From Ensifer adhaerens (GTDB taxonomy: Bacteria; Pseudomonadota; Alphaproteobacteria; Rhizobiales; Rhizobiaceae): a stretch of 64,000 nt of DNA. Location of the stretch: positions 620,001-684,000 of the forward strand of contig NZ_LGAP01000001.1 of the NCBI RefSeq assembly GCF_001270265.1, given 5' to 3'. The position numbers were made by a program, and so were the translations under genes. Below, piece by piece: positions 33,777 to 36,659 of the stretch. The notes under the pieces are model-generated. The model made no database searches. It saw only the letters and a list, made by a program, of their open reading frames with translations, and had not been told where the DNA came from. Numbering within the stretch: the stretch's first letter is position 1; each line of letters starts with the position of its first letter.

Positions 33777-33835
33777 GGGCGGTTTCCTACCATGCTCGCC
33801 CCTTCGTTCCAACCGTCGTTGCTATCGGAACAAAC

Positions 33836-33861
33836 GAAAACGGCGCCCGAAGGCGCCGTCT
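33836..33861 (-). terminator. Terminator after the first DUF1127 gene
   Basis: Read on the minus strand: stem ACGGCGCC / GGCGCCGT with a TTCG loop followed by TTTTCG. It lies 25 bases beyond the DUF1127 stop codon. Confidence 0.8.
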
Positions 33862-33885
33862 TGGAAGTCTGGCCGTTCGTTCCGA

Positions 33886-34029
33886 TTAACGGAAGGAACG
33901 CGATGCAATGTTGCGGATATCGTAGCGGGTGATGCCGATATCATTCAGAGCGTGGTTCGACAGGTTGCCGAGCTCGCTGACGGTGCGGCGGTAGTTGATC
34001 CAGCTTTTTGCGATACGAATCGGGTTCAT
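33886..34029 (-). CDS. DUF1127 small protein (first copy)
   Basis: A 47-residue DUF1127/YjiS-like protein: MNPIRIAKSWINYRRTVSEL followed by GNLSNHALNDIGITRYDIRN. DUF1127 proteins are short, Arg-rich and often strongly stress-induced; in alphaproteobacteria some are linked to small RNAs with CCUCCUCCC loops and to RNA turnover or phosphate and carbon metabolism. A longer open frame reaches 34260, but GAGGAAAA places the ribosome site directly before ATG 34029, and the family length is 45-70 residues. A terminator follows. It is one of two co-oriented copies, with the sRNA pair upstream. Confidence 0.9.
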   Translation of the reverse strand: MNPIRIAKSWINYRRTVSELGNLSNHALNDIGITRYDIRNIASRSFR

Positions 34030-34395
34030 GACTTTTTCCTCAAGAGCGGTCTGTCGCGACAGCCATCTGTCTGCGTCGTTGAGGTTCTTATACGCTTGTC
34101 TAATTAGAAGGTGGAGTGCAAAGAAAATGCATCTGCTATGCATTTGTGCAGTGCATCGCCAAATTGCTGGGCAGCATTTGCGCCCGCTCGAAAATGCGCC
34201 ATCACTTAAAGATTGATTAAAGTGCGGATGTGTCGCGTTAAGGATTTGTAATCGCGTCATTTTCCGCGTGGAAAACCGAAAGCGTTACCGGTGATTCCCG
34301 CTTAAATCCGAGCAAGATTGTTTGGCCGTGCACGGTTCCGGATCGGCGGCGCGCTTTCGCAGTTGCGAAAGCTTGTTGGCACGGTGTTTCGACAA

Positions 34396-34430
34396 CGAAA
34401 AACGCCCCCCGGAATGAACCGGAGGGCGTT
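34396..34430 (-). terminator. Terminator after the second DUF1127 gene
   Basis: Minus-strand stem AACGCCCTCCGG / CCGGGGGGCGTT (one mismatch) with a 6-base loop and a TTTTCG tail, 40 bases after the stop codon. Confidence 0.8.
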
Positions 34431-34470
34431 GGTAATGTCCGGCGCGCTGCGCGAAGCAGCGCTCCTGGAA

Positions 34471-34614
34471 TTACTTGATGGCCTGACGCGCAACGTAGGA
34501 GATGTCGCCGCGGCCGATGCCGAGGTCGCTCAGCTCACGGTCGCTCATGCGGCCGAGTTCGTTGCAGGTCTGACGATACTTGCGCCAATTGTTGAAAGAG
34601 CGTGCGAGGTTCAT
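34471..34614 (-). CDS. DUF1127 small protein (second copy)
   Basis: A 47-residue protein found by reading the sequence directly: MNLARSFNNWRKYRQTCNEL then GRMSDRELSDLGIGRGDISY and VARQAIK. It is the canonical DUF1127 form, with a basic helix followed by the L-S/N-D-x-x-L-x-D-I/L-G-I-x-R-x-D-I block shared with the neighbouring copy. A ribosome site (AGAAAGGAT) precedes ATG 34614, and a terminator follows. It lies immediately downstream, on the same strand, of two sRNA genes with anti-Shine-Dalgarno loops, the same partnership seen for DUF1127 genes and CcsR/cuckoo RNAs in other alphaproteobacteria. Confidence 0.93.
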   Translation of the reverse strand: MNLARSFNNWRKYRQTCNELGRMSDRELSDLGIGRGDISYVARQAIK

Positions 34615-34839
34615 GATCCTATCCTTTCTAGGGTCGTTTGCCAGCGCTTATCTCTCTGCTGGCCGTCATCTGATGTCCCGAAATATAATCGATTTGGGCG
34701 GAATTTACAGAGATAATGCTGCATCGCACCCATGCAACTCTTGCAAGCCTCATTGTGGCGGCACTCCGGCGGCAGGTGCTGTTTGCGCCGTCGGATGGTG
34801 AAAGCGCTGTCGGAGACTGCGGAGCGGAATGGTTGGCTT

Positions 34840-34985
34840 GAATCAAACAACGCCCGCTGGGGGAGGAGATCCAGCGAGCGTCGTTTTGTTCTGATCGGCA
34901 ACTGGGAGGAGGAGTGCTGCCGATCCAAATCGAGGGGCGCTGGGAGGAGGAGTGCGCCGCCCCGATCGATGAGTTGAAGGTAGTC
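34840..34985 (-). ncRNA. Alpha-r14/cuckoo-like trans-acting sRNA, copy A
   Basis: On the minus strand three hairpins follow each other, each presenting a pyrimidine loop complementary to ribosome binding sites: hairpin 1 at 34934-34963 (loop with CTCCTCCCA), hairpin 2 at 34894-34924 (CTCCTCCCA) and hairpin 3 at 34846-34885 (CTCCTCCC within a fully paired 15-bp stem). The last stem, followed by TTTGATT, can act as the terminator. Three exposed anti-SD motifs are the mark of the alpha-r14 family (NfeR1/Smr14 of S. meliloti) and related cuckoo RNAs. The 5' end is a guess. The family is assigned from memory of its description. Confidence 0.8.
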
Positions 34986-35124
34986 CAAGCTGCCGGGTTT
35001 GGGTAGATCGAATGCTTCATGGCACCTATGCGCGTGCCGCATGGCTCCGCACAATGGCGGCCAAAATCTGCACAAACATTGTGCAAGCGCTTCGATCAAG
35101 CAGAATAAATGAAATGGGGAGGCT

Positions 35125-35265
35125 GAAAAGAATAACGCCCGCTGGGGGAGGAGGTCCAGCGAGCGCCATTGAAGGTGATTGGCAACTGGGAGGAGGAGTG
35201 TTGCCAATCGTATCGGAGGGGCGCTGGGAGGAGGAGTGCGCCGCTCCGAATTCCATCGAGCTTTC
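35125..35265 (-). ncRNA. Alpha-r14/cuckoo-like trans-acting sRNA, copy B
   Basis: The same design as the copy about 290 bases downstream of it: minus-strand hairpins at 35215-35247, 35177-35209 and 35136-35165, each with a CCTCCTCCC-type loop. The last stem (CGCTCGCTGG / CCAGCGGGCG) is followed by TTATTCTTTT, a good intrinsic terminator, so this copy most likely ends near 35122. Stems of hairpins 1 and 2 differ from copy A by compensating changes (GGCA...TGCC kept as GGCAAC...GTTGCC), while the loops are unchanged, which supports a selected RNA structure. Flanking bases (35266-35549) contain no gene and probably the promoter. Confidence 0.82.
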
Positions 35266-35549
35266 GCCCGGGTCTTTCCCGCACTTCGGGGCGGCTGACC
35301 ATCGCCGCTGACGTCCGCTTGGCTGTTTGCCTTCGTTCGCCTTTGATGACTTGAATATAGGGTCTTTAAATCGATTTGTGCAGTGCAATATCCGCATGGA
35401 AGATATGCGCATTGCGCAAGCCGGCAGATCCTGGCGAACTCACCCGTGATGCGAGCGATCGAATGGTTGTGTTCGCCCGCCATTGCATGATTAGGTGGAT
35501 ATCTCGGGTTTTGCCTTCAAGGGGCAGCCCGTCGCAGGAGTGGAGCAAC

Positions 35550-36659
35550 ATGTATCGCGGGCGTCTCGAAAGGGATTTCAAGCATTGGGTTGGCATGGGG
35601 CTTTTGCCGGAGGCGTCCGCGCGACAGATGCTTGCGGAGTATGATGGTCGCGAGTCCACCTTTCGGGCCGGCCGTGTTCTGCTGGTGCTTGCTGCCCTGC
35701 TGCTGTCGGCCTCAATCCTGCTGCTCGTGGCGGCCAACTGGGAAGCACTGCCACGTCTTGCACGCCTGATCGGCATTGTCGGCTTGATCTGGGGCTTTCA
35801 TCTTGCCGGTGCGTTACTTCTGCGGCGGGGCAATGGTGGCTTGGCCGCGGCGGCGCTGGTGCTGGCGACGATGTCGTTCGGTGCAGGCATCGCGCTTGTC
35901 GGGCAGATGTACCATCTCTCAGGGGAGGCCGCCGATGCGATCCTGCTCTGGATTGCCGGAGCCTGCGTGACGGCGCTTGCATTCCGATCAGCCGCCGCCA
36001 CGACGGTTTGTGGCGGGTTGGCCTGGGCCTATTTCCTGACGTTGCTTTCCGAGGGCGACCTTGGCGATATCGTCCAGTGGCAGACCTGGCTTGTCCCGGC
36101 GCTCGCCGTCGTCGTCGTCGTCTTGGTGCGCGTGACCGATGCAGGGCGCGCACGCCACCTGGCCTATCTCCTGGTTATGGCGTGGCTGGTGTGGCTCTAT
36201 ATCGAGAACCCGTCCTTGGCTTTTGCCGGCGCGCTGGCAGGCGGCGGCATTATCGCATTCCTCGCGGCAGCCGTGCCGGGTTCGCCGCTTCGCCCCATGG
36301 CGCTTGAGGCGGGCTCCGCGCCTGCATTTTATTCCTTCGCTTTGGCGCTCATCGGTTTCGCGGTGTTGCAGTTCGAAGCAGACGGTTTGACCGGTCAAGT
36401 GGCGGCCGGTGCGGCTGTGCTCATCGTCGCCCTACTCGGGATCGCGCTTGCCGGCGCGCAGAACGGCGCAGTGCGCTACCTCGGTTATGCGGCCTTTGCC
36501 GGCGAACTTCTTTATCTCGCGTTCGAGACGCTTGGCTCCATGCTCGGAACGTCGGGCTTCTTCCTGATTTCCGGGTTGCTCGTTGCGGCGATCGCCTGGT
36601 TGGTCATCCGGATAGAAGGGCGCTTGATGCGGACGCGACGCAAGGAGGTTTCGCCATGA
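35550..36659 (+). CDS. DUF2157-domain polytopic membrane protein
   Basis: A 369-residue inner-membrane protein. A short cytoplasmic N-terminal domain (MYRGRLERDFKHWVGMGLLP, about 45 residues) matches the start of DUF2157, which is then followed by around 10-12 predicted helices (for example LLVLAALLLSASILLLVAANW and LVPALAVVVVVLVRV). No enzyme motif is visible. The frame is open back to 35376, but ATG 35550 has an AGGAGTGGAG site. Its end overlaps the start of the next gene by 4 bases (ATGA). DUF2157 and GDYXXLXY proteins are regularly encoded as a pair; the function is unknown. Confidence 0.85.
   Translation: MYRGRLERDFKHWVGMGLLPEASARQMLAEYDGRESTFRAGRVLLVLAALLLSASILLLVAANWEALPRLARLIGIVGLIWGFHLAGALLLRRGNGGLAAAALVLATMSFGAGIALVGQMYHLSGEAADAILLWIAGACVTALAFRSAAATTVCGGLAWAYFLTLLSEGDLGDIVQWQTWLVPALAVVVVVLVRVTDAGRARHLAYLLVMAWLVWLYIENPSLAFAGALAGGGIIAFLAAAVPGSPLRPMALEAGSAPAFYSFALALIGFAVLQFEADGLTGQVAAGAAVLIVALLGIALAGAQNGAVRYLGYAAFAGELLYLAFETLGSMLGTSGFFLISGLLVAAIAWLVIRIEGRLMRTRRKEVSP

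Follow-up and report, generated by a model that had tools for sequence, protein, structure and literature searches.

Tandem ar14 anti-Shine-Dalgarno sRNAs upstream of two DUF1127 genes in Ensifer adhaerens, one of them preceded by a conserved leader with a predicted pseudoknot

The locus described here lies in a stretch of 64,000 nucleotides of Ensifer adhaerens (contig NZ_LGAP01000001.1, positions 620,001 to 684,000), called the window below. It consists of two small RNA (sRNA) units with anti-Shine-Dalgarno (aSD) loops, followed on the same strand by two small DUF1127 genes (Table 1). The initial annotation had placed an sRNA pair just upstream of two DUF1127 genes, and Pfam confirms both genes (E 1.7e-16 and 1.8e-14). 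In the window the units have no DUF1127 ORF upstream of them. One flank holds DUF2157, GDYXXLXY and trigger factor genes, and the other a gene with a GidA domain, which we take to be TrmFO-like. Three terminator-like sites were found in the scan, against 2.1 expected.

Table 1. Features of the locus, in window coordinates.
Feature	Position	Strand	Basis or remark
Predicted unit-1 promoter, CTGCAC-N17-CTATAT	35355..35383	-	alignment of 16 Ensifer loci; motif positions; sigma-70 scan
Unit-1 leader (5' end near 35348 is a prediction)	35255..35348	-	promoter-to-hairpin-1 distance; in Ensifer, Sinorhizobium and other genera
Pseudoknot domain	35269..35310	-	model R1, 51.3 bits; covariation
P1 stem of pseudoknot domain	35308-35304/35295-35291	-	
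P2 stem of pseudoknot domain	35290-35287/35281-35278	-	
Pseudoknot pairing	35300-35297 (GGUC) with 35274-35271 (GACC)	-	
P4 hairpin, GAAA tetraloop (CGGGC-GAAA-GCUCG)	35257..35270	-	
GAATTC junction before unit 1	35248..35253	-	possible RNase E-type site
ar14 unit 1	35254-35130	-	RF02344, 117.3 bits, E 4.4e-21 (Rfam cmscan); three aSD hairpins
NtrC-type box before unit 2, TGC-N11-GCA	35069..35085	-	-116 to -100 of predicted start
LsrB/VtlR-type box before unit 2, GCAT-N3-TG-N3-T	35019..35031	-	same distance in 16/16 Ensifer loci
ar14 unit 2	34970-34845	-	RF02344, 104.2 bits, E 3.6e-18 (Rfam cmscan); probable NfeR1 orthologue
LsrB/VtlR-type box before DUF1127 gene 1	34723..34735	-	in 16/16 Ensifer loci
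DUF1127 gene 1 (47 aa)	34471..34614	-	Pfam PF06568, E 1.7e-16
Terminator-like hairpin 3' of DUF1127 gene 1	34401..34430	-	site scan
LsrB/VtlR-type box before DUF1127 gene 2, opposite orientation	34140..34152	+	
DUF1127 gene 2 (47 aa)	33886..34029	-	Pfam PF06568, E 1.8e-14

The two minus-strand units had been located correctly and read as alpha-r14/NfeR1 RNAs. The covariance model of that family (ar14, RF02344) supports this reading: both matches are full-length, and their scores are well over the gathering score of 58.8 bits and not at background. Each unit has three hairpins, each with an unpaired aSD motif; in both units loops 1 and 2 carry CUCCUCCUCCC and loop 3 carries CUCCUCCC. The third hairpin of unit 1 is a terminator-like stem, followed by UUAUUCUUUU. 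Unit 1 and its leader together fold better than 200 of 200 dinucleotide shuffles (z -3.76). The compensated stem changes that had been noted between the copies are present but modest, 2 of 30 comparable pairs being changed on both sides (one in hairpin 2 and one in hairpin 3, U-A to C-G); a further 2 of the 30 base pairs at shared alignment columns are changed on one side, and the outer stem of hairpin 1 is offset by one base between the units. Tandem Repeats Finder found no repeat in the pair, probably because the copies have diverged. The cuckoo/CcsR model that had also been suggested (RF02791) remains below its gathering score of 65.3 bits in the window. In five relatives its scores are 20-38 bits, with E values as low as 2.5e-6; these RNAs thus appear related to CcsR1 but under the cut-off. 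The ar14 family and its aSD mechanism are already known, and homology supports the proposed repression of translation.

The window genome contains six ar14 copies above the cut-off and two weak ones; when about 3 kb was read around each, only the pair in the window was accompanied by a DUF1127 ORF. Two of the other copies (loci L004 and L005, near 1480-1605) have four aSD motifs, not three. The pair is present in 16 of 16 sampled Ensifer genomes, the window's included, with 282-288 nt between the starts and two DUF1127 ORFs downstream in every case. The two-copy arrangement upstream of DUF1127, which had been singled out as an oddity, is the normal state of the genus in this sample. At least 29 of 33 Sinorhizobium genomes also have the pair (sample g70, in which genomes match the S. 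meliloti pSymB segment at up to 95%). Two further Sinorhizobium genomes (L183 and L185), in which unit 1 was not seen, have a single unit by the exact aSD motif. In a wider sample of the family, ar14 is above the cut-off in 277 of 297 genomes. One of the genomes has four consecutive ar14 matches beside a trigger factor gene (G035:C23:266663-267184).

The two units are not equivalent, in that the predicted elements upstream of them differ and unit 1 has a leader. This difference, and the structured leader itself, were missed in the initial annotation. Both units resemble NfeR1 (Smr14C2, SmelC397) of Sinorhizobium meliloti in having three hairpins with CCUCCUCCC loops, and unit 2 resembles it further in its upstream boxes. 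For NfeR1, an NtrC motif TGC-N11-GCA is reported at -116 to -101 and an LsrB motif TGCA-N6-GCAT at -72 to -60 (PMC10746234). Upstream of unit 2 lie TGCACAATGTTTGTGCA and TGCGGCACGCGCAT, the latter with one mismatch to the LsrB motif, in its TGCA half. Their starts are 44 bp apart, which is the published NfeR1 spacing, and the boxes match the published positions, with LsrB near -72 and NtrC near -116 to -101, if transcription begins at the predicted start, 34969. On the basis of these two boxes, spaced as in S. meliloti, unit 2 is probably the NfeR1 orthologue, although its fit to -35/-10 elements is weak. NfeR1 is described as an Hfq-independent RNA of 115-123 nt. Those parts of the NfeR1 descriptions that were consulted mention no tandem partner with a structured leader, such as the window pair has.

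The LsrB-type box (consensus GCAT-N3-TG-N3-T; PMC8844928) lies ahead of unit 2 in all 16 Ensifer loci, in 22 of the 23 Sinorhizobium loci where unit 2 was in view (24 were read), and in 9 of 11 other loci. NtrC-type matches are found there in 16 of 16, 21 of 23 and 4 of 11, in a search range so wide that some may be chance. The LsrB-type box by itself is common, with 12 in the window against 7.9 expected and as many in 11 of 100 shuffles, and the weight therefore rests on its conserved position and on the fact that three of the 12 fall within 34140-35031. DUF1127 gene 1 is preceded by such a box in all loci compared (16/16 Ensifer, 23/23 Sinorhizobium and 11/11 other), and DUF1127 gene 2 by a reverse box, seen in all 16 Ensifer loci (locus positions 2576-2607). 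In Brucella the reported targets of VtlR (LsrB) include DUF1127 genes (PMC12595884), which fits a shared regulon.

Unit 1 is preceded by a different predicted element. A sigma-70 scan of 33800-35700 gave a single site, at the predicted unit-1 promoter (0.9 expected in shuffles), and some 60 bp that end with CTATAT, about 95 nt upstream of hairpin 1, hardly vary across the 16 Ensifer loci. This block (window 35345-35420) is more conserved than the leader behind it, and may also serve the divergent DUF2157 gene. The leader contains two hairpins whose arrangement is constant while their stems vary, and the same two hairpins are recovered in a free fold of the window. The GGUC in the loop of the first is complementary to a GACC beyond the second, and the two are predicted to form a pseudoknot.

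This pairing was analysed by covariation. A covariance model, R1, was made from 37 chosen motifs; only the two hairpins were entered as base pairs, and the pseudoknot positions were treated as unpaired sequence. The corresponding alignment (A2, 37 distinct motifs) gives biased counts, because its motifs were selected for complete pairing; the set of R1 matches has 49 rows (47 distinct) in 91 sources, and includes two off-leader matches (L120:2468 and window:31257) and the imperfect leaders L017 and L107. The four pairs of the pseudoknot are 99.5% standard over 184 cells, compared with 0.7-55.4% when the partner is slid. Its percentage paired, doubly changed cells and covariation score were each reached in 0 of 500 shuffles; its doubly changed pairs and pair types were reached by 114 of 500 each, and on these two measures shuffling was not beaten. 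The two leader hairpins are 80.7% paired, against 34-51% when slid, and their pair types did not beat shuffling (243/500). On a tree of 54 loci made from DNA outside the leader (the degraded leaders L089, L096, L115 and L120 were excluded), which carries a long-branch warning, the type of the pseudoknot changed at least seven times, and at each of two of its positions there were four changes of both partners. At each of these positions the two partners changed together in all three independent pairs with good support (sign test p 0.25); the test falls short of p 0.05 because there are few independent pairs, and we regard the joint changes on the tree as suggestive only. Nine leaders outside the model set (L138, L147, L151, L155, L157, L179, L181, L182 and L187), read by eye, keep complete pairing; they are not fully independent, because eight were found with R1 (L187 matched weakly, E 0.13), and L179 and L181 are close relatives.

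The strict leader motif is present in 38 of 56 tandem loci and the leader is lacking in seven (L028, L035, L071, L082, L085, L093 and L112). In the other eleven (L011, L012, L017, L077, L089, L095, L096, L103, L107, L115 and L120) it is altered or degraded, as in L017, L089, L096, L107, L115 and L120, or has a G-U pair or mismatch that the strict search refuses. A further set of 14 loci has the leader in four (L179, L181, L182 and L187), no leader in L180, unit 1 without a leader in L191 and L192, and other layouts or copies in the rest. The leader is thus absent or degraded in several species, and would be needed at most in part of the group. Two of the species without it belong to Sinorhizobium (L112 and L180): their leader is lacking from the stretch between the predicted start and GAATTC (~1450-1520 and ~965-1035 respectively), and the promoter-like block and unit 1 are retained, which makes them natural leader-less comparisons. 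L078 and L138 carry three consecutive aSD units at this locus, the first of which is preceded by the leader.

When R1 was run over 394 genomes of the family, there were 36 matches at E 0.001 or better. All 16 with E <= 1.6e-5 directly precede ar14; among the 30 examined of the 36, 24 precede ar14 and six, with E 2.3e-5 to 3.6e-4, do not. The strict DNA pattern gave 21 matches in named genomes, of which 11, all in Rhizobiaceae (Ensifer, Sinorhizobium and Rhizobium rhizolycopersici), precede ar14, nine do not, and one is cut off at the locus end (L170). No known riboswitch or leader family in Rfam matched the leader: a search of window 35240-35440 gave three matches at E 1.4-8.3, all far under their cut-offs, and a search over the leader in five relatives gave nothing at E 1 or better. 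Nor did inspection by eye show anything of a decayed DUF1127 gene as its source. A tetracycline-responsive uORF leader of a DUF1127 gene has been reported (PMC12218461), and was judged to be different: its start site is 279 nt upstream of the gene, a distance that does not suit DUF1127 gene 1. The three- and four-hairpin aSD RNAs RFM SmelA075 and SmelA099 of Rhizobiales share the loop motif and the multi-copy pattern, and processed forms of them are reported (PMC3927594); the consulted part of that account describes no leader pseudoknot. We found no description of the leader in searches of the open-licence literature, and because only such papers were covered, it may have been described elsewhere. 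It is possible, at rather less than even odds, that the leader is a new class of structured RNA, in which a pseudoknot controls how much aSD sRNA is released from the precursor, either through recognition of a ligand or protein or as a barrier to an exonuclease.

In the CIN1 locus of Rhodobacter the DUF1127 gene precedes the CcsR RNAs, whereas in the window the sRNAs precede DUF1127 and there are separate promoter-like elements. The two loci are alike in that aSD-loop sRNAs adjoin a small DUF1127 gene, as is reported for CcsR1-4 and ccaF1 of Rhodobacter sphaeroides, and the association of DUF1127 with CcsR-like RNA has already been described under the name of the CIN1 locus (PMC10253847). A DUF1127 ORF directly before the sRNA is also found in 11 loci of other genera (L030, L031, L033-L037, L073, L082, L085 and L093), and in seven of these the gap between the end of the ORF and the listed sRNA match is 2-14 nt. 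The element TTGC(A/G)CTGCAC of the unit-1 promoter occurs near the DUF1127 genes in six of the 11 (L033, L037, L073, L082, L085 and L093) and was not found in the other five. Three of these loci, L082, L085 and L093, have the order DUF1127-ar14-DUF1127-ar14-DUF1127 (~1280-2370), as if a two-gene module had been duplicated. In L071, L112 and L180 there is little between promoter and sRNA. These layouts suggest that the slot from the promoter to the first sRNA can be filled by a DUF1127 gene or by a structured leader, or be nearly empty, and that the leader in the window lies where related genera carry a DUF1127 gene.

RNase E prefers sites that fit the consensus RNWUU. All 49 loci with the leader have the sequence GAATT immediately ahead of hairpin 1, as do 4 of 6 with short leaders, while it is found at 0 of 49 unit-2 starts and in none of 19 other ar14 copies; the motif could not be read in one more copy, L123. 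The looser RNWTT is present in 6 of these 19. The loci with DUF1127 first have GAATT in 3 of 11 and RNWTT in 9 of 11. In Rhodobacter, RNase E is reported to cut the DUF1127-CcsR precursor and so release the CcsR RNAs (PMC10253847). From this, and from the contrast in GAATT between the units, we infer that unit 1 may be cut out of a longer RNA and that unit 2 may be a primary transcript, although GAATT could have a role other than cleavage.

On the basis of these observations, our hypothesis is that both units are trans-acting aSD sRNAs of the ar14/NfeR1 family, whose CCUCCUCCC loops would pair with the Shine-Dalgarno regions of many mRNAs and block their translation. Unit 2 would be transcribed directly from its first hairpin, with LsrB as activator and NtrC as repressor. 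Unit 1 would have its own promoter about 95 nt upstream, giving a precursor with a pseudoknotted leader, from which the sRNA would be freed by a cut close to the conserved GAAUUC. The leader probably determines how stable this precursor is or how it is processed. The DUF1127 genes would belong to the same regulon as the sRNAs and not to the same transcript, because they have LsrB-type boxes of their own. To this reading as a whole (two ar14 sRNAs, separate promoters, a processed unit 1 and a shared LsrB regulon) we give a probability of roughly 0.75.

Unit 1 could instead be a decaying duplicate, and the leader structure a relic without function. The leader is missing in two Sinorhizobium species, and unit 1 was not seen in two others. 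In S. meliloti only one of the six ar14 copies was reliably detected by northern blot (PMC7143759), and unit 1 may therefore be silent in common conditions. Decay is nevertheless unlikely: the compensated changes recur over several genera, the promoter block hardly varies within Ensifer, and in the window unit 1 has the higher ar14 score (117.3 bits, as opposed to 104.2 for unit 2). Slightly less likely again is a CIN1 operon like that of Rhodobacter, in which both units would be UTR fragments of a single DUF1127 transcript, released solely by processing. The Rhodobacter CcsR RNAs are reported to be co-transcribed with the DUF1127 gene ccaF1 from an RpoHI/RpoHII promoter, and the 11 loci with a DUF1127 ORF immediately before the sRNA (for example L073, L085 and L093) point the same way. 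In the window, however, the units have no such ORF ahead of them, separate conserved boxes stand before unit 2 and before each DUF1127 gene, and the GAATT junction is missing at unit 2. Co-transcription of the sRNAs with DUF1127 appears disfavoured, given the promoter-like element before unit 1 and the LsrB-type boxes before unit 2 and before each DUF1127 gene. Finally, it is very improbable that the leader is a translated upstream ORF and not a functional RNA structure: an ATG-started frame (35302-35096) does run from the leader through unit 1 in the window, and another S. meliloti DUF1127 gene is reported to be under uORF control (PMC12218461), but this ATG is not kept across the 16 Ensifer loci, close relatives differ by one or two bases in the distance from promoter to unit, so that the frame is broken, and the changes in the leader sit at paired positions and are compensated.

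It is worth adding that the preferred reading, with two sRNAs under separate promoters, has a parallel in AbcR1/AbcR2 (ar15), described as tandem aSD sRNAs with different promoters, one of them activated by LsrB. Unlike the window pair, these are of a different family and bind Hfq. In S. meliloti, NfeR1 is reported to tune nitrogen metabolism and nodulation (PMC10746234). If the leader does control release in the way suggested above, one copy of the same ribosome-site blocker would be transcribed directly and the other matured conditionally. The existence of a second copy that shares the loops but has a different promoter and a structured leader would help to explain why duplicates persist, and the leader of unit 1 would offer a direct test of leader-controlled sRNA release. 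The shared LsrB-type regulon is a simple candidate explanation for the association of DUF1127 with these sRNAs.
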